A DNA stretch of 64,000 nucleotides from Hysterangium stoloniferum (Eukaryota; Basidiomycota; Agaricomycetes; Hysterangiales; Hysterangiaceae), in the NCBI GenBank assembly GCA_015178975.1, contig WHVD01000008.1, forward strand, positions 868,001 through 932,000, read 5' to 3'. This document shows positions 5,806 through 51,692 of this stretch, one piece after another. The stretch's first letter is position 1, and the number at the start of each line of letters is the position of its first letter. Below the pieces are notes generated by a model. That model was not told the DNA's origin. It did no database searches and worked only from the letters and a program-made list of their open reading frames with translations. The position numbers were made by a program, and so were the translations under genes.

Positions 5806-6590
5806 AATGGTGATTGATTGCATCCCCTCCTTATACTGCAAAACTAGGAACACAATACGTCCAATCTCGATTCATCGATTGGTAATATTGTCAAGATTTC
5901 GAAATCAAGCATAGCATTTGAGGGTGATGCATTATCATGGGATTCTTGTGTTTCTGACTCATATCATCGATGTTTCATCAGCCATCACTTCTATTACTCC
6001 ATCATCCCTATTGTCTGACTCACTTCCCCTATTGTTCTATTGTGTTTCCCCATTTATCCGTATCACATGTCTGATCTCATCTTTTGTTTGTCATTCTCTT
6101 ATTGTTCAGCGCAGCCTCCCCCTATTATTGTTCACAGCTTTACTAACACTCCTATTGTGATGACTCAGAGATGACTCACACCATATCGCATCGTTATTGT
6201 GTCGTTGTTTGTAGATGTTTGATTTGACCTGTGCTCTCTCATGTATATAAGGGCCTCTCTTTTGCCCACTATTGAACAAGCAATTTCGTTGTATCTCATT
6301 TCGAAGCTCATTCTTAAGGACAATCTCTTAAGTCTTACTCTCAGTCTCACTCCTATGGCCAGTAAGGGATACTGTGGTGTCTCTTATTGTTGAAGTTATA
6401 CGCTCCTCGACATTGGGCTTATGTCAGCCTTTTGTATTCATCTTCGATTATGTCATCCAAGGTCCGATCTCTAGCCTCTCGCTCCGAGTGTGTTTGGTTA
6501 TAGACTGGTTTCAAGAACGACTGTGTTAGTAACCGTCATAAAGACTTGACCGTTGCGCACAGGTTATTAGGTCTTTTCCTAGTAACAAAC
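5806..6590. other. Non-coding, LTR-like segment with TATA box
   Basis: About 780 bp, pyrimidine-rich on the plus strand, with repeated CCTATTGT-type runs and a good TATA box (TATATAAGG) near 6244 on the plus strand. Composition and promoter placement look like an LTR, but I could not find paired termini or a target duplication, so boundaries and identity stay open. No convincing ORF. Confidence 0.35.
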
Positions 6591-8025: not shown

Positions 8026-8491
8026 CCTAGTCATGTGACAGCACATTATGTCATGAATGCATGCATGCACACATGTGCATGAACTGGCACGGCACATTGC
8101 ATTTGCCAACATGTGTAAGTTGCTGCATCATGAGTTGGTGCCTTCAGCACCTCCTGGTGGACCCTCTGTTAAAGTTGCTCGGTGGGTCCATGTAGGTTGC
8201 TTACCCAATGCTGACCAATGCTGATGAATTTCTGACCAATCAGTGACTAAGCAGCACCCACAGACCCACCAATGTAAATTAACTTATTGTAACAAGCCTG
8301 GGAACCCTTGCTTTGCTGCGGGGCAGTCACTTCGTGACCTGCCCCACAACTTCGCTGCAGGCTCCGGCTTGTTGGGGGGCAAAGCCCCCCAAACCCCCCG
8401 CATCAACAACTCTTAAGAATTTCTGAGACTCATTGTTAGAGACCAAGGAAATTGCTTTCAAATGGAAAGTCTCGTAGAATGTAAAGCAGCA
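8026..8491. other. Left flank of minisatellite cluster
   Basis: No gene seen. It holds CATGCATGCA-type alternating sequence near 8055-8100 and a segment at 8254-8340 that recurs at 11537-11617 on the far side of the minisatellites. A GC-rich palindrome (GGGGGGCAAAGCCCCCC) lies near 8375-8391; a similar hairpin recurs near 24617-24632. Confidence 0.6.
8254..8340 (+). repeat. Direct repeat bracketing minisatellite cluster (left copy)
   Basis: Shares with 11537-11617 the blocks CCCACAGACCCACCA, AGCCTGGGAACCCTTGCT and GTCACTTC.TGAC in the same order and orientation. The interval between the two copies is almost entirely tandem repeats. Confidence 0.7.
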
Positions 8492-9220
8492 GTTACAACA
8501 GGAAGCAACGGTTACAACAGGAAGCAACGGTTACAACAGGAAGCAACGGTTACAACAGGAAGCAACGGTTACAACAGGAAGCAACGGTTACAACAGGAAG
8601 CAACGGTTACAACAGGAAGCAACGGTTACAACAGGAAGCAACGGTTACAACAGGAAGCAACGGTTACAACAGGAAGCAACGGTTACAACAGGAAGCAACG
8701 GTTACAACAGGAAGCAACGGTTACAACAGGAAGCAACGGTTACAACAGGAAGCAACGGTTACAACAGGAAGCAACGGTTACAACAGGAAGCAACGGTTAC
8801 AACAGGAAGCAACGGTTACAACAGGAAGCAACGGTTACAACAGGAAGCAACGGTTACAACAGGAAGCAACGGTTACAACAGGAAGCAACGGTTACAACAG
8901 GAAGCAACGGTTACAACAGGAAGCAACGGTTACAACAGGAAGCAACGGTTACAACAGGAAGCAACGGTTACAACAGGAAGCAACGGTTACAACAGGAAGC
9001 AACGGTTACAACAGGAAGCAACGGTTACAACAGGAAGCAACGGTTACAACAGGAAGCAACGGTTACAACAGGAAGCAACGGTTACAACAGGAAGCAACGG
9101 TTACAACAGGAAGCAACGGTTACAACAGGAAGCAACGGTTACAACAGGAAGCAACGGTTACAACAGGAAGCAACGGTTACAACAGGAAGCAACGGTTACA
9201 ACAGGAAGCAACGGTTACAA
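8492..9220 (+). repeat. 19-bp minisatellite, 38 identical units
   Basis: The unit GTTACAACAGGAAGCAACG repeats every 19 bp from 8492 to 9213, exactly 38 units by length, with a partial unit after it. I saw no variant unit. Because 19 is not a multiple of three, the array reads through all frames as a 57-bp peptide period. That explains the long open frame here, which is not a gene. Confidence 0.97.
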
Positions 9221-9304
9221 AGGGAAACCCCCACATCAACAAATTTTAACTTATCTGAGGCTCATTGTTGTTTGAGAAAGGAAATTGTTTAAAAGTGGAA
9301 AGTC

Positions 9305-9590
9305 TTGAAAGAATGGAAAGCCTTGTTAGAACAGTAGAACGTAAAGTCTCGAAAGCACATAAGGTCTCGAAAGCACGTAAAGTCTTTAAAGGACGGGAAG
9401 TCACTTTAGAACAGAAAGTCACTTTAGAACAGAAAGTCACTTTAGAATGGAAAGTCACCTTAGAATGGAAAGTCACCTTAGAAAGGAAAGTTACCTTAGA
9501 ACGGAAAGTCACCTCAGAATGGAAAGTCACCTTAGAACAGAAAGTCACCTCAGAGTGGAAAGTGTTCAGGGGATGGAAAGTGTTACAAAG
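9305..9590 (+). repeat. 18-bp minisatellite (GAAAGTCACCTTAGAAYG-type)
   Basis: Imperfect 18-bp units, cleanest from about 9400 to 9560, degrading at both ends. The unit shares a purine-rich core with the neighbouring arrays, which suggests common descent or common replication dynamics. Confidence 0.9.
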
Positions 9591-9619
9591 GAAACAATTG
9601 TGAGAAAGATAAACAAAAG

Positions 9620-10190
9620 GAAACAAACATTACAAAGGAAACACCCTTTACAAAGGAAACACCTTTTACAAAGGAAACACCCTTTACAAAGGAAACACCC
9701 TTTACAAAGGAAACACCCGTTACAAAGGAAGGAAACAATTGTTACAACAGAAACACCCGTCACAATGGAAACACCCGTCACAAAGGAAACACCCATCACA
9801 ACAGAAACACCCATCACAACAGAAACACCCGTCACAATGGAAACACCCATCACAATGGAAACACCCATCACAATGGAAACACCCATCACAATGGAAACAC
9901 CCATCACAATGGAAACACCCATCACAATGGAAACACCCATCACAATGGAAACACCCATCACAATGGAAACACCCATCACAATGGAAACACCCATCACAAT
10001 GGAAACACCCATCACAATGGAAACATCCATCACAATGGAAACACCCATCACAATGGAAACACCCATCACAATGGAAACACCCATCACAATGGAAACACCC
10101 ATCACAATGGAAACACCCATCACAAAGGAAACACCCATCACAATGGAAACACCTGTTACAAAGGAATACAACCATCACAAAAAAAAAATG
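9620..10190 (+). repeat. 18-bp minisatellite (AATGGAAACACCCATCAC-type)
   Basis: Starts with about six units of the form AAAGGAAACACCCTTTAC (9630-9725), then more than twenty units of AATGGAAACACCCATCAC to about 10160, nearly identical in the centre and varied at the edges. Unit length 18 keeps a frame, so long artefactual ORFs appear on both strands. Confidence 0.95.
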
Positions 10191-10317
10191 ATCACAAAAA
10201 CAACAGTTACAAAAGAAAACAACAGCCACAAAAGTGTAAGAATGGAAACTGTTTAAAGAACAGAAACCATTACAAAAGGTATTACAAAAGACAGAAAGAA
10301 ATATCACAAATGGAACA

Positions 10318-11835: not shown

Positions 11836-12505
11836 TGTTACGACCGTGTCGCAACCCGACGGTCCCTGAGGTTATCATCACCTATCAGCATTTCAAGTTA
11901 TCATTCAAGTCATCACATCAGAAACCGTTGGTCTCCCGATGCTGACATAGGCTTTCACGGCGATCAAACTCCGTTTACACCCCCATCAAAATATACTCAT
12001 ACTATATACTTGTAACCCTCAGACTATTTCCTTTTCTTGTAATCCTGCTCTCGGTTATTTCACGGCCTCTGAACTAATCATAACCTTCCCGTTCCTAGTC
12101 AAGCTTATTTGTCAATAATGTTTTCCACTCTTCTCCTAGTTAGTATTTTCTAGATGCCAAATATTTGTATATGAACCCGCTGTAGTTGTAGTTACTAGGC
12201 AATCAGAATATTGACTCAGAATACCCTCATACATCTCTAGAAGTCTCATACTAAGTATTCCACCCTCCACCTTTGTGTGTGCTCGCCCACTCTCAGTTCC
12301 CAACCCCTTGGCCTGACACTCGACTTATCCTTTGGTCCCGATCAGTAACTCATCGTGAGGTGCTCGTCAGGACTAGTCTTCACCTGTCCAAAATTTAAGG
12401 ACACCCAACAGATATTTGCAAGGGCACAGCATATAAGCTGAAGCCAAGTCCTTCTGATCAGTCCCTGTCGGCCGACCAACATTAGTCAGTTTTCAGTTCT
12501 TAACA
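11836..12505 (+). mobile_element. Solo LTR, family A, copy A1
   Basis: Begins TGTTACGACCGTGTC and ends CAGTTCTTAACA (670 bp), flanked by CACTA at 11831-11835 and again at 12506-12510. No internal region is present, so it is the product of recombination between two LTRs. It is more diverged than copies A2 and A3. It carries the shared LTR hairpin (stem CAGC/GCTG, loop ATATAA) at 12427-12440. Confidence 0.93.
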
Positions 12506-26443: not shown

Positions 26444-26979
26444 CTACATACATATAATGATTAAGTGAGCAGATATTCAGGAAAGCCACAGGTTCCAGGG
26501 AAGTCAGAACATTGGCTGAGAGGAAGTGATGAGTGTTGACAAGGATGATTGGGGGAAGGTCAGGTCATAGATTACTAAAGTATCTAGAACAAATGCAGGG
26601 AGTCTGGCTGGAATCCAGGTCGGGAATTGACCAAGGACACCTGGAGATGTGAACTGTGAAGGGGTGGAGTCCAATGGGTTCTGGGGAATGAGATGACACA
26701 TCTAAATAATGGTGGAATATTTGACAAGGGACTGGGTTCAAGGGTACTTGAGGGATGAGGGTCAGGATCCAGTGGATTCTGGATCCTAACAGGAGTCCAA
26801 AAGATGGGTGAGGATCTGATATAATATCTGGGAAATACTCTGTGAAGTTTCCAGGAATGGATCTTCACACTGATATCATCAACATTCTCATTGGTTCCTC
26901 CACTTTAGTTATCAATATCAAAACTGAGCCCATTGAGGCTTCATTTTTAGCCTGGGGTGGATGAGCTACTAGAGGTGAC
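26444..26979. other. Degenerate repeat sequence, no gene
   Basis: Contains a second GGATCCTAACA (to 26791) that may be another LTR end. Positions 26870-26960 are weakly coding-like on the plus strand (INILIGSSTLVINIKTEPIE) and may be Gag sequence interrupted by solo LTR A2. Confidence 0.4.
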
Positions 26980-27701
26980 TGTTACGACCGTGTCGCAACC
27001 CTATTGGTCCCGAGGTTATCGCCACTTGTCAACGTTTCAAGTCACCCTCTCAGAAACCATCGGCCCCGAAGCTGACGAATGTTTTCGCGAAGATCAAACT
27101 CCATTTATGCCCATGTCAAAATAACTCGTATTGTCTGGTCAAACTTTGATACGTCCCCTTTATTATGTTGATCCGTCCAATCTTATGTTTTGCATATGTC
27201 TAGCTATATTTGTAGTCCTTGAACTATTTCCTTTTATCGTAATCCCGCTCTCGGTTATCATCGGCCTCCGAACTAATCATAAACTTCCCATTCCTAGTCA
27301 AGCTTATTGTTAATACCATGTTCCGCCCTTCTCCCCATTAGTATTTTCCAGACACCTGTTACTTGTATATGAACCCGCTGTAGTTGTAGTCACTAGGCAA
27401 TCAGAATATCGACTCAGAATACCCTCATACGCCTGTATCAGTCTCATACTAAGAATCCCCCCATCCGCCTTCGCATGCGCTCGCCCACTCCCAGCCCCAA
27501 CCCCTTGGTCCGACGCTCGACTTGTCCTTCGATTCCGATCGGTATCACGCCGAAAGGTACTCACTAGGATTAGTCTTTGCCCGCCCGAAATTTAAGGACA
27601 TCCTACGGATATTTGCGAGGGTGCAGCACATAAGCTGAAGCCAAGTCCTTCCGATCGGTCCCTGTCGGCCACTGACATTAGTCAGTTTTCAGTTCTTAAC
27701 A
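26980..27701 (+). mobile_element. Solo LTR, family A, copy A2
   Basis: 722 bp, TGTTACGACCGTGTCG to CAGTTCTTAACA, flanked by GTGAC on both sides (26975-26979, 27702-27706). Close to copy A3; most differences by eye are C/T or G/A at CpG. LTR hairpin at 27624-27637 (stem CAGC/GCTG, loop ACATAA). Confidence 0.95.
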
Positions 27702-27804
27702 GTGACTTGCATTCTTCATGTCAGGAATCAGAATATGGAGCTATTCCTAATCATCATTTAGAGGATGACAAAGGGTATCTGTTAGGACAATACTAACAAG
27801 ACTA

Positions 27805-31260: not shown

Positions 31261-32113
31261 ATGGTGCCAAAACCAATGCCTCAAAGAGCCAACATGACAG
31301 CTGGGTCCTCTGTGGCCCCCATCATCCAGGCACCTCTTACTGCTGCCCAATTACTGGTGCAGTGGGAGGAACAGTGCTGCTAATGGGAAGAGGCTGAGGC
31401 AGCTGAAAAAGAATTGGAGAGGGAGTATCAGGCTGTGCTGGAGGCTGAGAGAGAGGCAGAGGAACAGAGGAAGAGGGATGAGGAGGAGGTGGCATGGGTG
31501 GCTGCAGAGAAGGTGGTGGGAAAGGTAAGTTGACTTGTCATCTTATTGTTTGACCTTACTGACTTGTCTTTGTAGCACAAGGCTGTGGAGGTTGAGTCGG
31601 AGTCTGAGGGGGAGGGCAAGAGCCCTCAGAAGGTGAGTAGCAAATCCACAGAATATCTGAGGACTAACACAAACCACAGAAAGTGAAGAAGGTGGATCCA
31701 GTGCATCTGGATGCCAAAAACAACCCGCAGTGCACCAGGTGTTCTGACAGGAACACTGAGTGCTGGCAGAAGTCTGGGCAGGGACTAGGGTGCTACCCCT
31801 GTGCTCACTTAAAGGCCAGGTGCTCCCTAGTGCACAAACCCTTGGGGTTCAGGGGATGGGAAAATGGCAGGTTGTCTGAGAGGCCAGAAGCTTGGAGGAT
31901 GCTTTGGAGAAGAATCGCCAGGCAGTATTGGAGACCCTCCATGGACTCCATGGGGACTTTGGGAAGTTCCTGGCAGACTATGGGGGGTACCAGTATGAGG
32001 AGTCCAAAGGTGGGATGAGGAGCCTGGGGAAGAGGAAGGAGTCATTGTGGAGGTGGCGGGACTCAGAGAAGAGTTCAATGAGGTGGGGAAGAAACATAGT
32101 CCAATTAATATAG
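31261..32113 (+). pseudogene. Antisense Zn2Cys6-type accessory gene, decayed copy in Gypsy-C
   Basis: Plus-strand gene opposite to gag-pol, same place as the intact copy in Gypsy-B. TATAAAAA at 31203-31210, ATG at 31261. Exon 1 has a Glu-rich coiled coil (EREAEEQRKRDEEE) but a TAA at 31381-31383, just after two Cys codons; CAA to TAA and CGC to TGC would explain all three. Introns: 31525-31575 and 31633-31679, both GT..AG and at the same places as in Gypsy-B. Exon 3 (from 31680) carries CTRCSDRNTECWQ and CYPCAHLKARC, a CX2CX6CX9CX2CX6C pattern. After about 31890 the reading frame shifts (31892-32113 continues the helical part). Not functional, but it gives independent support for the gene structure. 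Confidence 0.8.
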
Positions 32114-32197: not shown

Positions 32198-32762
32198 TGT
32201 TAAGTGCCGTGTCGGGAACTTATTTGGGAACTATCGGAAAGTCACCAGGAAGTCGGAAACTCGTGGATAGGGTCAGGACATCAGCTTCAGCTTATGTGCT
32301 GTGCCTCTACACAAACGCTCAATGTCCTTAATTTCAGAAGTAAAACTTACGACGGAAGATATGGATATTCAGAGTTCCGAAGAGTTCCGAATATCGAGCG
32401 TACAGAAAGACGGGAGGAAGAATAAGAAACTAAGTCGATATCAGATCTAAGGTAAAGTACAAATTCGCGGAAACTAATATAAGTCTACTCGTTATTGTAC
32501 TACAAACTAAGACCATAATAAGACGGAAATGGAAGTATTCTTAAAACGGAAATACAATAAGACATATTAGGAAGACAATATTCCAAAATGGGAATATAAC
32601 AAACAAATGAGTGAACACTTGTCAATGGACAAATTACCAAATGCGGAACAAGGGAAGAATGCGGATGATACGGTAACTATGATGTTCCGTAGTTGGGGAT
32701 CGGAAGTCGGAGATCAGAGATCGGAAGTCAGATATTGAAACATCCGGGAATGGGTCATAACA
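32198..32762 (-). repeat. Gypsy-B 3' LTR
   Basis: 565 bp, TGTTAAGTGCCGTGTCGG to GGGTCATAACA. The adjoining GTACCCCCCTGTTAGG is the polypurine tract read on the minus strand. Differs from the right LTR mainly by C/T and G/A changes. Confidence 0.95.
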
Positions 32763-32890
32763 GTACCCCCCTGTTAGGCTGAAATCCCATAGAGGCGATT
32801 AGGTACTGAGTGATTGAAGCAATGGCTGATTGTTATGTGTCGTGAAATTTACGCAAATATGGAGGTGAGAGTTTCAGCTGATATTCTGAG

Positions 32891-32898
32891 TATAAAAA
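32891..32898 (+). promoter_or_regulatory. TATA box of the antisense gene
   Basis: TATAAAAA, 56 bp before the ATG at 32947. The copies in Gypsy-C (31203-31210) and Gypsy-J (51106-51113) have the same octamer 58 and 57 bp before their ATGs. The surrounding sequence is much less conserved, so the box and its spacing look constrained. Confidence 0.75.
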
Positions 32899-32946
32899 CC
32901 TCCAGATATTCGAATTAACATTTTTGTTTCTTTATCCACGACTTGT

Positions 32947-34080
32947 ATGTCGATTCGTCGGCTGTTATTCATCACTACCCCAGAAGACTCAGATACCAAA
33001 TTATCCGTACTTGAAAAAATGTCGAAGGTCGCAGAACTTCAACAAAAACGCCAAAAAATGGAGGAGTTGAAACGACGACAGGAGGAGGAGGAAAAAACGT
33101 TGATGCAGGAGTTGAAGGATGCGGAAGAGGCGGAAAAGCGGGAAGTGGAGTGGGCGAAGGCGGAAAAGGAGAAGGAGTTGGCGAGGTTAAGGAAAGTAAT
33201 GGAGGATCGGAGGTCGAAGGAAGAAGAAGAGAAGAAGCAACGAGAGGCTGAGGCAGCAGAAAAACGCAAGGAGGTAAGGGAAGGAAAGGTAAGTCCAATT
33301 CCATAGGTTTCCGTGGTTCCAACTGATAACTTTTGTGTACAGCGAAAAGCTGTGGAGGTGGAGGTAGAGGGAGAAGCTGGGCCTTCGAGTCCTAAAGTAA
33401 GTGCATCTGCATAAGATCGGTAATTGACTAATCTTCCGAAACAGAAACAAAAGGTCAAGGCTCCGGAACGGATGGAAATCGTCCATGAGACTCCGTGTTA
33501 TCGATGTTCCATATGGAACATGACGTGTTGGAAGCAGAAGGTAAAATGGGGCGGAACTTGCTATCCCTGCACAGTCCTCAAACTTCCGTGCACCCTCGCC
33601 TCGAAAAGGGTTCCAAAGGGTGAGAAGACTCCTAAGGCTAACGACGTGGAAAGTTCAGGAGCGGCCAAAGCTGCAGAAACTGAAACATCGAAAACGGATA
33701 GTACGGGCATTGAGCTCCTCAAGGAGACCGTCGACGCGCTGGTTTTTATTGGGACGGAAGTCAAGAAAATGTGGGACACAATGGATCGCCACAATGATAT
33801 CCAGGAGAAGGGTTTCCGTTCGTTGGTCCGGAATTTCCGGAGGCAAAACGATTTCCTGGAGAAAATAATGGTTAGCATTGGTGTTATCGCAGTATCTGAG
33901 AGGTTTTCCGATAAGGCACGGGAAGAGCCTAATGATCCGTTGGCAGAATGTGTCGAAAAGAGGTGGGCGTCAGGAAATGGGCCGGAGGAATCGGAGAGTG
34001 AGGATGAAGAGGTGCAGGATATGGTAGAAAATGCGGAGATTGCAGATGATATGGGAGGATTTGGGTGTCAGAAACTTTAA
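32947..34080 (+). CDS. Antisense accessory gene of Gypsy-B: coiled-coil protein with Zn2Cys6-type motif
   Basis: Three exons (32947-33288, 33343-33396, 33445-34080), introns of 54 and 48 nt with GT..AG ends, all phase 0; 343 residues with no stop. Exon 1 is a long charged coiled coil (about residues 25-114, rich in Glu/Lys/Arg). Exon 3 begins with CYRCSIWNMTC, then CYPCTVLKLPC after ten residues: CX2CX6CX10CX2CX6C, the spacing of fungal binuclear zinc-cluster DNA-binding domains. Next are a Ser/Thr-rich linker, a helical stretch (ELLKETVDALVFIGTEVKKM) and an acidic tail. A second ATG at 33019 is possible. It lies between the polypurine tract and the chromodomain, convergent with pol, 107 bp from its end. 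DNA binding or regulation of the element is inference; the family is not known to me. Confidence 0.78.
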
Positions 34081-34186: not shown

Positions 34187-35472
34187 TTAGAGTGATGATA
34201 AAGGTTCGGGTTTACTTGGATAAGCCGTGTGGAAGTTGGTAACGATTTCCATAGCGTGTCCAAGTTCCGTGGCCAATATCCATGAAGTTTCCTCGTCGGT
34301 ACCTTCATAGCCTGCCCATTTGACTAAATAGAGCAATTTACAAGTACGTCGGCAATTGTCAATTTTAGAATCCAAAATTTCGGAAACTTCAAATTCGGGT
34401 TCTCCATCAATAATGACCAGAGGGGACGGGGGTTGAATACGTTCCGGGATTGAGTTAGGAACACAAGGTTCTAACATGGAAACGTGGAAAATGGGATGAA
34501 CTGCTCACATACTATCGGGAAGACGGAGAGTCCATGAAAGTGAACTGGCTTGTGCTATAATTTCGAAAGGGCCTAAGAATTTCTCAGCGAGTTTTTTAGA
34601 AGGTCGGGTAGTACGGAAAAATTGAGCTTTTACAAAAACCTGATCACCGATTTTAAAATTAGGAGGCGGGATCCTGTTTTTGTCCGTGGAACGTTGATAA
34701 TATTCCTGTGCGGAAGAAATAGCTTTCCGAAGTTCTTGATGTAATTCGTTGAGGTCGGTAATAAATTCTTGAGCACAGACAAAAGCCAAATCTCGTTCGG
34801 AATGTACTATGAGATTCGGATTATAGCCTTTGTTGGTGAAAAAAGGAGATATGCTGGTAGTTGCATTCGGAGAGTTATTGTAGGCGAATTCCGCGATCGG
34901 GAGAAGGGATTTCCAATTGTCCTGTTGATAATTGCAATAGATGTGGAGATATTGTTCCAGTGTTTGATTAACGTGTTCTGTTTGTCCATCACCTTCCGGG
35001 TGATATCCCGAGGTGAAGTGCAATTTCATGTCGAGGGCTTTTCCGAGAGCCTGGAAGAAGTGGGAGACGAACTTGGAGCCTCGATTGGAAGTTACGTGAG
35101 ATGGAACTCCGTGTTTGGAAAATACGTGAATAATGAAAAGTTCCGCTAATTGTAAGGACGTGATTGTATCATGAGTGGGTATGAAAATGCCTTGTTTCAA
35201 GAATTGATCCACAACAACTAAAATGGATGTAAAGCCTTCAGATGTCGGAAGTTGTTCGATGAAATCCATGGAAATTGAGTTCCAAGGTTTTTCCAGTATC
35301 GGGAGTTGTTTGAGAAGGCTGTACGGCTTATGCCTCTGGGTTTTGGAGCGTAAGCAGGTGGTGCATGACTTACAGAACTGGGTTACGAAATCTCAGAGGT
35401 TAGGCCAAGTGTATTCTCTACGGATTAAACCAAGAGTATTGTTGATGCCGTAATGTCTGGAGATTGGATGAT
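34187..35472 (-). pseudogene. Gypsy-B integrase core and chromodomain
   Basis: The C-terminal part of pol, left of the inserted solo LTR. Integrase core: MDFIEQLPTSEGFTSILVV (first Asp), VTSNRGSKFVSHFF where the family has an Asp at the Asn position, and HPEGDGQTEHVNQTLEQYL (catalytic Glu). The second catalytic Asp is therefore replaced by Asn (GAC to AAC), which alone would kill strand transfer. A TGA at about 34505 (likely from CGA) separates the core from a chromodomain (FEVSEILDSKI, LLYLVKWAGY, TSWILATELG) that would bind modified histone tails and steer integration to heterochromatin. In frame with the RNase H part once the 725-bp insertion is removed. Confidence 0.9.
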
Positions 35473-36192
35473 TGTTACGACCGTGTCACAACCCTATCGG
35501 CCCCGAGGTTATCGCCACCTGTCAATGTTTAAAGTCCTTCTCTCGGAAACCATCGGCCCCGAAGCTGACGAATGTTTCGCGAAGATCAAACTCCATTTAC
35601 GCCCACGTCAAATAACTCGTATTGTCTGGTCAAACTTTGATACGTCCCCTTTATTATGTTGATCCGTTCAATCTTATGTTTCGCATATGTCTATCTATAT
35701 TTGTAGTCCTCGAACCATTTCCTTTTATCGTAATCCCGCTCTCGGTTATCATCGGCCTCCGAACTAATCATAAACTTCCCATTCCTAGTCAAGCTTATTG
35801 TTAATACCGTGTTCCGCCCTTCTCCCCATTAGTATTTTCCAGATGCCTGTTACTGGTATATGAACCCGCTGTAATTGTAGTTACTAGGCAATCAGAATAT
35901 CGACTCAGAATACCCTCATACACCTGTATCAGTCTCATACTAAGAATCCCCCCATCCGCCTTCGCGTGCGCTCGCCCACTACCGGCCCCGACCCCTTGGC
36001 CTGACGCTCGACTTGTCCTTCGATTCCGATCGGTATCACGCCGAAAGGGACTCACTAGGATTAGTCTTTGCCCGCCCGAAATTTAAGGACATCCTACGGA
36101 TATTTGCGAGGGCGCAGCACATAAGCTGAAGCCAAGTCCTTCCGATCGGTCCCTGTCAGCCACCGACATTAGTCAGTTTCCAGTTCTTAACA
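35473..36192 (+). mobile_element. Solo LTR, family A, copy A3, inserted in Gypsy-B pol
   Basis: 720 bp, TGTTACGACCGTGTCAC to CAGTTCTTAACA, flanked by ATGAT on both sides (35468-35472, 36193-36197). Inserted between RNase H and the integrase, and opposite in orientation to Gypsy-B. The youngest-looking family A copy by CpG content. Confidence 0.96.
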
Positions 36193-38628
36193 ATGATCGT
36201 GTTTATACTGAAGTACGTGGAGTCGGAGATTGTTGAAATCTGGAATGTAGATATGTCCATCGAGATGGATAAAACCTTGAGAGTCCTGTGACCATCGGGG
36301 TTGGTCCGGATTGTCAGGAACTTCTAGGTGTGGCTTGAGAGCCGGATCAGAAGTGAGTGTAGAAAGGATATCTTGATGTAACTGCTCAATGTCCATAATC
36401 ATGATGCTACACATAATTGGATAGTAAAGGGAAGTTGCTCGGATAGATGCGGAAAGTTGTTGCGTTGTAAAAACTGGTTTTAAGTTATGCGGATTAACAA
36501 CTGCATAGTTACTTTCCCCCTCTTTAGGATAGATGTCCCCTCGTCGAGTCATGGCATCTGGTTTTCCACCAAGATGTCTGGTTCGGAAACGGATAATCAT
36601 GTTGAAGGCAGAAAGGAATTCGGACCAGTGGGCTTGCCGGCGGGTTAAAAGTTTAGTGGTAGAAAAATATTCAAGATTTTTGTGATCGGTAACAATGTTA
36701 ACGGGAGTTGAGGAACCTTCGAGATAATGCCGCCAATGTTTAAAAGCTTCGAAAATTGCCAAAAGTTCCTTATCATGAATGTCGTAGTTGAGTTCGGATA
36801 CCGAAAGTGTCCGAGAAAGAAATGCAACCAGATGAATTTCACCGTCGGAATCTTGAATGGAAAGAATCGTGGCAATTGCATAATCAGAAGCATCGGTTTC
36901 CACAATAATCGGAACATCGGGTTTCCAATGGGAAAGGATCGGAGCAGAAGTGAAAGCATTTTTTAAAGTCTGGAAAGCGGAGCGGCATTTGTCATCAAAG
37001 ACCCATGGTTGAGTTTTACGGGTAAGATGAGTGAGCGGTACTGTAATATCCGAGTAGTTCCAAATAAAACAACAGTAAAAGTTGGCGAAACCTAAAAATG
37101 ACTGAATATCCTTGACTTTCCATGGTTCGGGCCAGTCGCGGACAACTTGAACCTTGGTTTCATCCATATGAAGACCATCAGGTCCGATAATGAAACCTAA
37201 GTATTCAATAGAATCCATGTCAAAGTAGCATTTTTTACCGTTGGCGAAAAGGCCGTTTTTATGGAGTCTTCAGAAAACTTCATGGACTTGTTCGTCGTGA
37301 AGAGCGGGATCCTCGGAAAATACCAAAATGTCGTCCAAATAGACTATAACACATACGTCAAGCATGTCGGAAAATATATCATTAACAAAACGTTGAAAAG
37401 TGGAAGGGGCATTGGTAAGGCTGAACGGCATAACCAACCATTCAAAGGATCCATAGCGAGTCCGAAAAGCAGTCTTCCATTCATCGCCCTCGGCAATTCA
37501 GACCAAATGATAGGCATGTTTGAGGTCTATTTTGGTGTAGATCCGAGCTTTCCGTGGGGCGTCGAGTAGATCGGTAACGAGTGGAAGTGGGTACTTGTCT
37601 TTCCGTGTGATGGAATTCAATCCTCTGAAATCGACACAGAGTCGAAGAGAACCATCCTTCTTTCGGATGAAAAGGACGGGTGCTCCATACGGAGACTTTG
37701 AGGGACGGATAAAACCTATTGATAAATGTTCATCCAGGAACTCCCGAATAGACGAAAGTTCTGATTGGGATAATGGGTAAATAGGTCCTAACGGAGGGTT
37801 TGAACCAGGCTCAATATCGATTTTTATGTCGTAGGGCCTATGTGGTGCAAGCCTGTCAGCTTTTTGCTTACTGAAAATGTCCGCAAAATCATGGTATTTT
37901 TCGGGAACTCCTTCCAGGTCGGCTTTTAGCTCGGATAATTCTGGAGTCGCAAAATGTCCAGATGCTTCATCAACTTTTAAGCTGATCGAAAAACACTGTG
38001 AACCATCCAGTTTACTCACCCTAACAAATGCCGAAGCGTTGATGAGAGAGATTTTTGGAGGCGTGGAGGTTTCAGTAGAAGCCGGAGGTGCCGTAGATGC
38101 CGAAAAGGCGATGGCCGGAAGAGATGCTGCAGGAGGAACGGAAGTGTCGGGAATTTGGAAAGTAATACTGCCCAATACCCAGTCAATCAACGGATTATAT
38201 CGGGTGAGCCAGTTGTATCCAAGAACTACCAAACAGCTAGAGTCCAACTGTGTTACAAAAAAAGTAACCGTCTGGGATGTTCCACAAGGGAATCGGATGG
38301 ACATGTCGCCGGCTTGAGTAATAGCCGTATTGCGAGTGCCGTCACACAGACGCAAGGAAATTGCAGGAACAGAATGGAGTTTCAGATTATGTTTCGTGGC
38401 AAAGGTGGTATCTACAAAACAGTGTGGAGCTGGAATCTATCAGAGCTTGGAACACTAAATTTCCAAGAAAGTCAGAAACAAGTTTTACAAATAATGAATC
38501 GGGATTAGAGAGAGCGGATGCGTTGAGACGGATAACCTCGGAAACACGGAGAGAGTCAATGCAACCCTCTGTCCATGCAGATTCCGGAGAGAACGTTCCG
38601 TCCGGTTCTCTCGAGAAACCTCGGCTTT
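36193..38628 (-). pseudogene. Gypsy-B protease, reverse transcriptase and RNase H
   Basis: Protease near 38387-38470: LFVKLVSDF, then ALIDSSST, where the catalytic triplet reads D-S-S instead of D-S-G; a 2-nt loss just after it shifts the frame. The RT (37498-38355 and on) shows [29 protein letters not shown] and [13 protein letters not shown] at 37498-37500 replaces the expected Trp. The catalytic [10 protein letters not shown] lies near 37325-37350, and a second TGA is at 37270-37272. RNase H (36193-37218) has IVETDASDYAIATIL, LHDKELLAI-type and TDHKNLEYF motifs. Pol and Gag share a frame, which fits a single original Gag-Pol ORF as in Tf1-type elements. Confidence 0.9.
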
Positions 38629-39456
38629 TCATTCCCAATAACAGGCATCGGATGTTTGAGCTTTCATCCGCATGAGTTGGAGAGTTTTCGGCTTTCCATC
38701 TTTGCAGATTTCGTCTTTAAGGCGTGATGGAAGTCCCATATAGAAATGGTGTCTGAGGGCGGAATCATCCCATCCACATCGTGCGGCGAGGGTATTGAAC
38801 TTGACGAGATAATCGGAAACTCGTTGATTGTCCTTCATCTTGAGTGTCATTAATTCATTTTCTGCTTCGCCAGATTGATTGTAAGGTCCGAAATTGGTTT
38901 CCAGTTCTTCCACAAAAGCGTCCCAGTCGTCGAGCCATACGGGTGTCTCGTCGGATATTCTGGATAGTCCAGGTTCGAACCAATCCTGAGCGGTATCCTT
39001 GAGATATGAGAGCGCAAAATTGACTTTTCGACTATCGGATTTGAATGCATTGGGTCGATTGCGGAAGCTGAAACAGCATTGGAGAAGGAAATTCTGCAAT
39101 TTTTTCAGATCCTTGCTGGTAAATGGTTCGGGTTCTTTGACTCCGGTGCGGGATGATTCTTTACTATCCTCAGTGGATTTCAAGTAGTCAGCGAATTTCA
39201 CAATGGAGTTGATAAACAACATTTCAGTCGGTTTGTCGGAAGATTTCTTTTTCGATGTCTCCGGCTGATCTTCTGCCTCATTGTCAGAAGTGTGGGGATC
39301 ATTGGGATCCTTTGTTACCTCGGTAACCTCCTCGGTAACTTCTTCGACTGAAGCTGATGTTGTCAGCTGAATTGGGGTTTCGGGTTGAGTGGTGTAAAGT
39401 TGCAATGGGGATTGAAGTTGGGATGGTCCTTTGGAAGCTTTGCGTTTGGGACCCAT
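38629..39456 (-). pseudogene. Gypsy-B Gag
   Basis: Capsid protein of the retrotransposon, 275 codons as read, starting 34 nt inside the 5' LTR (ATG 39456). Basic and Pro/Thr/Glu-rich N-terminus, then the retrotransposon Gag domain (FALSYLKDTAQDWFEPGL, WDAFVEELETNFGPYN, YLVKFNTLAARCGWDDSALR, FYMGLPSRLKDEI). Ends at a TGA at about 38629 after CYWE; Gypsy-J keeps Gln/Arg-rich sequence and a zinc knuckle beyond this point, so the stop probably derives from CGA. The knuckle region itself is deleted in Gypsy-B, since sequence passes directly to the protease. Confidence 0.92.
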
Positions 39457-39477
39457 GATGAGCGAGTCGCAGAGTTG

Positions 39478-39488
39478 AGATCTGATAT
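39478..39488 (-). promoter_or_regulatory. Self-complementary primer-binding site of Gypsy-B
   Basis: On the minus strand ATATCAGATCT lies 2 nt inside the 5' LTR. It is the exact reverse complement of AGATCTGATAT in the LTR (plus coordinates 39731-39741), about 30 nt downstream of a TATA-like TATATTAG, so at the expected transcript start. This is the arrangement of Tf1, whose mRNA 5' end primes reverse transcription. Confidence 0.7.
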
Positions 39489-39490
39489 AC

Positions 39491-40055
39491 TGTTAGGTGC
39501 CGTGTCGGGAACTTATTCCAGAACTATCGGAAAGTCACTGGGAAGTCGGAAACTCGTGGATAGGGTCAGGACGTCAGCTTCAGCTTATGTGCTGCGCCTC
39601 TACGCAAACACTCAATGTCCTTAATTTCAGAAGTAAAACTTACGACGGAAGATATGGATATTCAGAGTTCTGAAGAGTTCCGAATATCGAGCGTACAGAA
39701 AGACGGGAGGAGGAATAAGAAACTAAGTCGATATCAGATCTAAGTTAAAGTACAAATTCGTGGAAACTAATATAAGTCCACTCATTATTGTACTACAAAC
39801 TAAGACCATAATAAGACAGAAATGGAAGTGTTCTTAAAACGGAAATACAATAAGACATATTAGGAAGACAATATTCCGAAACAGGAATATAACAAACAAA
39901 CGAGTGAACACTTGTCAATGGACAAATTACCAAATGCGGAACAAGGGAAGAATGCGGATGATACGGTAACTACGATGTTCCGTAGTTGGGGATCGGAAGT
40001 CGGAAGTCGGAGATCAGAAGTTGGATATTGAAACATCCAGGAACGGGTCGTAACA
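39491..40055 (-). repeat. Gypsy-B 5' LTR
   Basis: 565 bp, the same length as the left LTR. Hairpin at 39581-39594 (stem CAGC/GCTG around TTATGT on the plus strand). Confidence 0.95.
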
Positions 40056-42908: not shown

Positions 42909-43440
42909 CTAGAGAGAGGAAAGTGGTCCTGGTTTGAGTGGGTAAGCTGTGTGAAAATCAGTGACAATCTCCATGGCATTCCCAAGTTCTGTGGCCAAGA
43001 TCCATGAAGTCTCTTCATCGGTGCCCTCATAACCCACCCACTTGACCAAGTAAAGCAGTTTACAAGTGTGTTGACACTTGTCTATTTTTGAGTCTAAAAT
43101 TTGAGAGATTTCAAACTCAGGTTCTCCATCAATAATGACTGGAGGAGGCAGAGATTGCACACATTCCAGGATAGTGTTGCAGAAGCATAGAGACATGAAA
43201 TACTGGGTGTACCATGTGCATGCTATCCAGAAGCCATAGGGTCCATGAGACTGATCCTACTTGTGCAATAATTTCAAAGGGAGCTAAATATTTTTCAGCA
43301 AGCTTTTTTGATGGACAGGTAGTCCAGAAAAATTGCACTTTGACAAAAACACAGTCACCAATTTTGAAGTTGGGTGGCAGAATCCAGTTTCAGTCTACTG
43401 AATGCTGATATTGCTCTTGAGCAGATGTTATCATGGACCA
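42909..43440 (-). pseudogene. Gypsy-C integrase end and chromodomain
   Basis: Chromodomain at 42909-43196 (FEISQILDSKI, LLYLVKWVGY, TSWILATELG), closely similar to that of Gypsy-B. Upstream (43129-43338, another frame) is the integrase C-terminal segment (TCPSKKLAEKYLAPFEIIAQ). A frameshift lies between them. The integrase core is absent. Confidence 0.85.
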
Positions 43441-43870
43441 GAGTTCCTCTGACAAACCCTTGAGCACAGGCAGAGGCAAGGTTCCATTCTGGGGTGTACT
43501 GTAATATTTGGATTGTACCCTTTATTTGCATAGTTGACCATGGAGGTTCCAAATCTTTTTTCTTTTTGTCCTTTAGCAAGTCATCTATTAACTTATCTAA
43601 AGCATGTGCTAGAAATTCAGAAGCAGGGTCTGGCCATTGCTGTTGGGCATTAGATGGGGGATTTTCGACACCTTTGCCCTTGTTGGGGGCTGTGGACTCA
43701 TCCTCATGCTCAGATCCATCCTCATCTTCCAGGACATCTTCAATACAGGCTTCATCCATAGCTTCTGGCTGGTGCATGAATGTCTGACTGGTGTACAATG
43801 TGAGTGGGGAATGAAGAGTTGATGGTCCAGGTATGCTTTCCTGTCCACATGCTCTTGTTCTTGGTGGCAT
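43355..43870 (-). pseudogene. Gypsy-C Gag-integrase fusion from internal deletion
   Basis: 171 codons starting 41 nt from the 5' LTR. The first 115 or so residues are a Gag N-terminus (Ser/Thr/Pro-rich, then acidic EDVLEDEDGSEHEDES). The last 50 match the region after the integrase core (YTPEWNLASACAQGF, compare YNPNLIVHSERDLAFVCAQEF in Gypsy-B). The whole capsid, protease, RT and integrase core are gone, removed by one deletion near 43500-43540. Confidence 0.75.
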
Positions 43871-51105: not shown

Positions 51106-51219
51106 TATAAAAATTCGAGGTGTGCTGGTGCTAGAGTTTTTAATTCTTTCTCTTCAACCACAATGACCATGGGTTCTGGCTCTAAACCTTTCCCAATGAG
51201 AGCAACTGTAACCCCCATA
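51106..51219 (+). pseudogene. Antisense accessory gene remnant in Gypsy-J (promoter and first codons)
   Basis: TATAAAAA at 51106-51113, ATG at 51163, and about 19 codons (GSGSKPFPMRATVTPI) before the sequence joins integrase N-terminal coding of the opposite strand at about 51220. The rest of the gene, the chromodomain and the integrase core are deleted. The position directly inside the 3' LTR matches Gypsy-B and Gypsy-C. Confidence 0.55.
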
Positions 51220-51692
51220 TCAGGACCCCATATGGTTTGTGTCACTGTGATTTAGAGCATAGACAGGTTTTACAGGATGTGCAATAGTGCTTAATGAAAT
51301 ATCAGAGGCTGGGCCATGTATATTCCCTTCTAATGAGTGGAAGAGTCGTATTGAGGCCAAAATGTCCTGAGATTGGGTGGTGATGCTTATGTTGTAGGAT
51401 TTGCAGCCAAAGGGTGTCGGAATCCAGTACATAGATGTGGTTGTCAAGTCTAATGAAACCCTGTGAGTCTAGTGACCATCAGGGCTGATTGGAATCAGGC
51501 AGGTTGTCGAGGTGTGCTTTGGTGACTGGGTCTAATGGAATTGCTGATAGTATGTCCTGATGTAATGTTTTGGTATCCATAAGGATAACACTTTGCAAGA
51601 CTGGATGGATAAGGTAAGTAGCTTGGATAGATGCAGAAAGTTGTTTGGATGAGAACATAGGCTTAAAATTATGTGGATTAACTGTGGCATAG
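51220..51692 (-). pseudogene. Gypsy-J integrase N-terminal and RNase H-integrase linker
   Basis: Minus strand; frames change several times. Recognised by similarity to Gypsy-B 36200-36500: the short segment with LYVLDS and DTLWL, and HKHHHPI, which belongs to the zinc-binding region. No intact domain. Confidence 0.55.

Follow-up and report, generated by a model that had tools for sequence, protein, structure and literature searches.

A predicted spliced antisense gene with a zinc-cluster-like cysteine motif in chromodomain Gypsy retrotransposons of Hysterangium stoloniferum

Chromodomain Gypsy retrotransposons of Hysterangium stoloniferum contain what appears, from sequence comparison, to be an integral accessory gene, which has a fixed antisense position, is predicted to be spliced, and occurs in three diverged types. 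It is almost certainly a gene of the element that is under protein-level selection. In the window, a 64,000-nucleotide stretch of contig WHVD01000008.1, the gene is located in the element Gypsy-B at positions 32947-34080 of the plus strand. It has three exons with 343 codons, runs opposite to gag-pol, and sits between the chromodomain end of pol and the 3' LTR (Table 1). The gene starts 184 bp inward from the 3' LTR of the minus-strand element and is oriented tail-to-tail with pol. The coordinates, the number of codons, and the cysteine spacing CX2CX6CX10CX2CX6C given in a preliminary description of the window were all exact. Its claim that the antisense gene belongs to the element was borne out, and homologues occupy the same place in other elements of the genome.

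Table 1 Positions of the antisense gene, of Gypsy-B, and of related gene copies in the window.
Feature	Positions	Strand	Basis
3' LTR of Gypsy-B	32198-32762	-	matches the direct repeat at 39491-40055 with 94.3% identity
Leader and presumed promoter of the antisense gene	32763-32946	+	TATAAA at 32891
Exon 1, charged, probably coiled-coil; second half is the swapped block	32947-33288	+	splice model, block differences
Intron 1, 54 nt, in-frame stop	33289-33342	+	donor and acceptor conservation
Exon 2, 18 codons, acidic	33343-33396	+	splice model
Intron 2, 48 nt, in-frame stops	33397-33444	+	donor and acceptor conservation
Exon 3, from an NLS-like start through the six-cysteine cluster and the C-terminal region to the stop	33445-34080	+	splice model
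Six-cysteine Zn2Cys6-like cluster, residues 150-181	33496-33591	+	cysteine positions; sub-threshold PF00172 match
Decayed pol of Gypsy-B, ends in chromodomain, insertion at about 35480-36192	34190-38587	-	tblastn with open pol of the same family; 4 in-frame stops
Decayed gag of Gypsy-B	38581-39492	-	tblastn; 1 in-frame stop, 119 codons missing
5' LTR of Gypsy-B	39491-40055	-	direct repeat
Decayed type-C antisense gene in Gypsy-C	31261-32113	+	sequence comparison
Start of type-D antisense gene, remnant in Gypsy-J	51163-51228	+	sequence comparison

Both introns of the Gypsy-B gene have the form GTAAGT...CAG and contain in-frame stops. Across 31 copies, the GT donor is present in 31/31 for each intron, and the AG acceptor in 29/31 for intron 1 and 30/31 for intron 2. 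The interiors of the introns are only 83% (intron 1) and 62% (intron 2) identical between copies of type I (84% or more identity to B) and type II (78% or less). A TATA-like box is located at -56 or -57 in 20/20 copies examined. The splice sites and the TATA-like box, together with a dN/dS far below one in the true frame, indicate that the gene is more than a chance reading frame. Introns that are antisense to the genomic RNA escape splicing during retrotransposition. The introns survive retrotransposition because their antisense orientation makes them unspliceable from the genomic RNA, and the gene thus illustrates that antisense carriage allows a retrotransposon to retain a gene with introns.

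Selection was estimated by pairwise Nei-Gojobori comparison of codon alignments of the 31 copies, a sample biased toward good gene matches, with gaps masked and with pairs that are not independent. The median dN/dS was 0.50 at dS below 0.05 (35 pairs), 0.37 (44 pairs), 0.33 (28), 0.26 (6), and 0.23 (171) in the next bins of rising dS, and 0.24 at dS above 0.45 (180 pairs). The four false frames gave values of 1.19, 1.08, 0.98, and 1.38. Seven deep single pairs had dN/dS of 0.14-0.32, none of them with an upper 95% bound above 0.44, and the shallow pair L018-L019 had 0.66 (0.27-2.02). The gene is therefore under purifying selection, with a ratio among deep copies that is not near one. Since dN/dS is lower in deep than in shallow pairs, the protein has been constrained while the elements multiplied and decays after insertion; 14/31 copies are open from start to stop, and two more, L027 and L029, are truncated where the fetched stretches end. 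Between types I and II, residues 185-230 are the loosest part of the gene (0.71), and the other five parts have values of 0.18-0.32.

The preliminary description took the open gene beside broken gag and pol as a hint of a different kind of selection, which the comparison of copies does not bear out: with rising dS in 21 copies, dN/dS falls from 0.47 to 0.15 in pol and from 0.42 to 0.18 in gag, the same trend as in the gene, whose values are somewhat higher than those of gag and pol at dS from 0.05 to 0.30. The open frame in Gypsy-B alone is unremarkable. A simple substitution model that ignores indels gives a chance of about 0.29 that this 1-kb gene has no stop at the age derived from the LTRs, and the gene has less than a third of the length of pol; the frame was therefore rejected as a sign of special selection. 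A minus-strand frame of 180 codons across exon 3 is open in 14/21 copies (L009-L028 and the window copy), with 168-176 codons or a different arrangement in the others. Coding on this strand was considered and rejected, since the reverse frame whose third positions coincide with those of the gene has a dN/dS of 0.33, which is above that of the sense frame and would fit the sharing of third positions. The open minus frame is probably a by-product of sense coding.

The position of the gene was determined in 21 copies, consisting of 20 stretches fetched around the best gene matches and the copy in the window. A flanking LTR pair is present in 18/21, L020 has a partial pair only, and L026 and L027 have none. 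In two of the 21 copies, L018 and L019, the gag frame (420 codons stop to stop), the pol frame (1239), and the gene are all open, and the stops of pol and the gene are about 90 bp apart. The open gag and pol frames of L018 (minus strand, 6424-6454) share 31 bp in different reading frames, an arrangement suggestive of programmed frameshifting. Of four type-C stretches fetched at greater length, all have the gene on the strand opposite to remnants of gag-pol, and three have it within an LTR pair.

Elements were also ranked by pol, with its last 111 residues as the query and the best 150 of 2641 candidates scored. A listed B-type gene is present at a distance of 1198-1260 bp in 91/150 of these elements, always antisense and never on the other strand, and in 62/75 at the top of the list. 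When a longer list of genes was used, a B-type gene from that list was found within 1.7 kb of pol in 67 of the 77 best pol-ranked elements; strand was determined for the set at 1198-1260 bp in the 150 elements. The 77 elements comprise 44 of type I, 23 of type II, none intermediate, and ten without a listed gene. One of the ten, L049 (G000:C522:183900-185150), contains the 3' half of the gene, the 5' half being replaced by unrelated sequence, and yet its pol is open over 1237 codons. The gene may therefore be dispensable or supplied by other copies, and L049 is possibly a trans-dependent element. In the lower part of the pol list, a type-D gene adjoins 8/16 pol ends tested. A related 3' end of pol, with a chromodomain part 80% identical, is located in the window at 42912-43532 (minus strand) with no antisense gene detectable beside it, and is probably truncated.

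The gene is not peculiar to Gypsy-B. In the 111-Mb genome, the related types B, C, and D occur at least at 116, 150, and 150 separate places, respectively, all of these counts being lower bounds. The search with the Gypsy-B protein yielded 204 exon matches at 116 places (best 118 of 1129 candidates scored). All 150 scored candidates matched for a 160-residue exon-3 piece (best 150 of 450), for the Gypsy-C gene piece (best 150 of 1214), and for the L050 gene piece representing type D (best 150 of 413). The listed places of B (116), C (150), and D (150) do not overlap within 1.5 kb. The three types have a common layout, which for C and D was derived by visual reading of one or a few copies: a long charged exon with GK at its end, a short acidic exon that closes with SPK or SPNK, and a cysteine exon; the cluster CX2CX6CX9-10CX2CX6C is also common to them. 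BLASTP of exon 3 gave E-values of 5e-5 (B-C), 0.007 (B-D), and 5e-8 (C-D), and identities between types of about 29-41% over the aligned parts, compared with 71-75% for pol of B and C. Two further copies that had been proposed in the window are real. The decayed one in Gypsy-C is 44% identical over 57 residues of the cysteine region and belongs to the second large set. The remnant in Gypsy-J has its ATG at 51163 and is 73% identical over 22 residues to the start of the type-D gene, with 80% DNA identity of leader and start over 221 aligned columns.

It is very improbable that the gene was captured from the host, to be carried along as a passenger or put to use by the host. Host genes usually have introns, and 42 places in the genome score above the Zn_clus cut-off. 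However, 0/42 of them lie within 1.5 kb of the listed B, C, and D genes, the copies decay after insertion like gag and pol, and three old types are found in elements of one lineage. Nothing in the analysis points to usefulness to the host, which had been suggested earlier. A search of a large protein database produced no scoring match at E 0.001 or E 10.

The cysteines of the cluster in the B protein are residues 150, 153, 160, 171, 174, and 181, and two more are at 301 and 340. Zn2Cys6 binuclear clusters have the spacing CX2CX6C-X(5-12)-CX2CX6-8C, which is found in the B protein and is present in 27/31 copies (two with a stop inside). The earlier assignment to the Zn2Cys6 type stands for the cysteine pattern, as PF00172, a DNA-binding family, was the sole Pfam family matched by the cluster pieces (8/8, best E 0.00014). 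It does not stand for formal membership in Zn_clus, since the B piece reaches 13.9 bits against a cut-off of 21; the type-C piece from the window scored 17, L048 12.3, and L050 12.0. The whole B protein matched Zn_clus at E 3.8, and its best Pfam match, Hamartin at E 0.034, is insignificant as well. Neither the whole type-D protein nor the half clusters matched any Pfam family. The likeness to PF00172 consists of six cysteines with a fitting spacing. Apart from the score, the cluster differs from the family in the apparent order of its triads: in the alignment, the first cysteine triad falls on the profile's second half, and the second triad contains the invariant lysine. The halves of the zinc cluster are perhaps in swapped order. 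A profile search of the PDB at E 10 identified no relative, and the predicted fold of exon 3 alone was uninformative (pLDDT 47). Splicing across the junction of exons 2 and 3 would create the motif SPKKQKVK, which we take to resemble the consensus of a monopartite nuclear localisation signal; its counterparts in the other gene types are SPKKPKVK, SPKKQKQ, and SPNKQKARK.

Parts of the gene have been exchanged as blocks between elements that are otherwise nearly identical. In the 100-column windows shown, L028 and L018 have identities of 90-100%, apart from a pair of windows in the latter half of exon 1 with 60% and 80%. L033 (with L051 as its extension) matches L028 at 90-100% along some 3 kb of pol and at 98-100% in the exon-1 block, but at 75-83% across exons 2-3. 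Among 108 pairs of 22 sequences with a median gag-pol window identity of at least 95.5%, windows below 86% identity make up 129/1282 in the gene and 0/4622 in gag-pol, with one such window in the LTR. The pol tree places 15 rows in one clade (support 100/100), whereas the exon-1 block tree groups L027, L028, and L033 with B and L026 (99/99). Forcing the 15-row clade on the exon-1 block was rejected (AU p = 0.014, for a group named from earlier comparisons). The exon 3 tree leaves the 15 rows unsplit (90/90), with a branch of 0.33 for L033 compared with 0.012 in pol. The block differences and the conflict of the trees therefore indicate that recombination with diverged relatives exchanged parts of the gene; no donor of the exon-3 block was found.

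The contrast between the gene and gag-pol rests mainly on three sequences, as 126/129 low windows involve L027, L028, or L033 with L051, and the remaining three belong to L024-L025 and L024-L026. Independent exchange events are therefore few. This favours ordinary recombination between element lineages, in which a few chance events with breakpoints near the 3' end occurred without selection for variants, as do the initial choice of copies by gene similarity and the comparison of L033 over only 3 kb of pol. We regard ordinary recombination as a serious possibility, somewhat short of an even chance. It is opposed by the pol-ranked list, which is blind to the gene and contains no intermediates among its best 77 elements, by the lack of any such block in the gag-pol windows, and by the pair L024-L026, which also has an exon-1 block. 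Block exchange between near-identical elements suggests, without proving, that new protein variants are advantageous, for example against host silencing or resident copies, and selection may have favoured the exchange. We propose only tentatively, as less likely than not, that this is a combinatorial recognition gene, in which old discrete variants of the coil and of the zinc-cluster and C-terminal part would be reshuffled onto constant backbones, driven by conflict. Elements would gain from a DNA-binding protein that neither host silencing nor resident copies recognise as yet.

Pressure from the host is suggested by the decay of the elements. In 16 LTR pairs (B, L009-L019, and L021-L025), transitions are found at 182/1194 CpG and 58/7697 other positions. 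The decay, overwhelmingly of C-to-T type at CpG, suggests a RIP-like or methylation signature, and that the elements are methylated and silenced. In 12 copies, 12.5-16.7% of CpG positions are decayed across all 11 regions from LTR to LTR. The decay thus proceeds at much the same rate throughout the element, and no trace of local CpG protection of the gene or leader was found in these copies and regions.

The VANC proteins of Arabidopsis VANDAL transposons are anti-silencing proteins (PMC5735166, PMC10398659). The antisense gene may resemble them in encoding a fast-diverging protein of the element that is proposed to act on the element's own DNA; unlike the retrotransposons studied here, VANDALs are DNA transposons. 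A sequence-specific factor of this kind would bind repeats within the element that encodes it, lower methylation, and so clear silent marks from the family it belongs to; variants of the factor would diversify as host silencing follows them. This is a stricter form of a general regulatory role. We consider it unlikely. The fast divergence of the gene types relative to pol, the exchange of blocks within the gene, and CpG-directed decay are in its favour. However, the CpG decay is about uniform, neither target repeats nor a co-varying motif were identified, and the leaders of types I and II are still 92-96% identical over the aligned stretches.

The chance is about even that the product of the gene is an accessory nuclear regulator of the element that acts on DNA or chromatin. 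A role as a regulator of the element, or as a silencing or anti-silencing factor, which the preliminary description had put forward as inference, stays so here. A Pol II transcript would begin on the antisense strand, immediately inward of the 3' LTR, and splicing would join the coil to the nuclear-localisation-like motif and the Zn2Cys6-like cluster. The protein may pair through the coil and enter the nucleus, where it would bind the DNA or chromatin of the element and regulate the element's own expression; activation or anti-silencing is slightly favoured over repression. The fixed antisense place, the deep dN/dS, the conserved splice sites and TATA-like box, the PF00172 matches, the NLS-like motif, the block pattern with its tree conflict, and the CpG decay of the LTRs speak for such a regulator. 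The Zn_clus scores below the cut-off, the lack of a PDB match, the uninformative fold, the even CpG decay along the element, the higher dN/dS of the gene in the middle bins, the elements without a listed gene, and the few sequences behind the block contrast speak against it.

HBZ of HTLV-1 is a spliced antisense bZIP regulator that is read from the 3' end of a retrovirus. The gene studied here is similar, by analogy only, in being a predicted spliced antisense gene starting at the 3' end with a proposed nuclear regulatory product, and it differs in that HBZ is a bZIP protein of a retrovirus. HBZ is an example of retroviral antisense proteins that repress the sense promoter, and the gene anatomy predicts antisense transcription from the 3' end toward pol. 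Both are consistent with a self-limiting repressor, in which the antisense protein or transcript damps gag-pol expression and controls copy number, but such a repressor is improbable. Its RNA-only form does not predict the dN/dS of deep copies or the conserved splice sites. Furthermore, the gene and pol are convergent with their stops close together, so that a transcript ending between the stops would miss pol. Antisense promoters are named in PMC7264820. The same source reports proposed roles of plant antisense ORFs in nuclear import, which, together with the NLS-like motif and the DNA-binding-like cluster, would fit a cofactor that acts with the chromodomain integrase, either in integration or in bringing the pre-integration complex into the nucleus. 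That function is quite improbable, since the blocks change while pol remains constant, which is unexpected in a tight partner of integrase. The regulatory reading is open to experiment: hundreds of copies in three types, open and decayed, with natural block swaps on constant backbones, make it testable which block recognises what, and whether the outcome is activation, anti-silencing, or self-limitation.

A gene of Boty-like retrotransposons of Botrytis cinerea, brtn, was reportedly described by Zhao et al. in 2011. It is an antisense extra gene (PMC8365987) located between pol and the 3' LTR (PMC7264820), and by this description the gene of Gypsy-B is alike in being an antisense extra gene at the same place in a fungal LTR element. 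Plant elements contain antisense additional ORFs between pol and the 3' LTR (aORF-3R), including gene23 of maize Grande, rice RIRE2, ORF4 of Silene Retand, and PvRetro13; an own promoter is reported for the Grande ORF, and the function of these ORFs is called unknown (PMC7264820). When the features that characterize aORF-3R were looked for in the Gypsy-B gene, we found the place, the many copies, and conservation like that of the other element proteins; the orientation and the proposed nuclear role are also shared, and as a sign of a promoter of its own the gene has the conserved TATA-like box. Four traits set it apart from aORF-3R: its element is fungal, it has two introns that are conserved, it encodes a Zn2Cys6-like cluster, and blocks of it have been exchanged. 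Comparison with the plant proteins was by way of Pfam, where the cluster pieces matched no family but PF00172. In a survey of fungal and plant Gypsy elements (PMC2864245), a figure legend includes additional ORFs of unknown function and does not mention antisense. In the literature searched, with subscription journals mostly beyond reach, no antisense zinc-cluster gene was described for LTR elements of basidiomycetes. Antisense extra genes were already known in plant elements and in Boty, and the spliced zinc-cluster gene, its three types, and the block exchange look new within the literature searched.

Self-comparison of the window identified additional repeats. A repeat of about 730 bp is located at 35469-36196, inside the pol of Gypsy-B, and at 26976-27705, with 94.7% identity between the two places. 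A third place at 12005-12505 is 82-83% identical to the first two, and the repeat inside pol is probably an LTR of another element. Long tandem arrays occupy 8484-9223, with a spacing of about 19 bp, and 9395-10233, with a spacing of about 18 bp.
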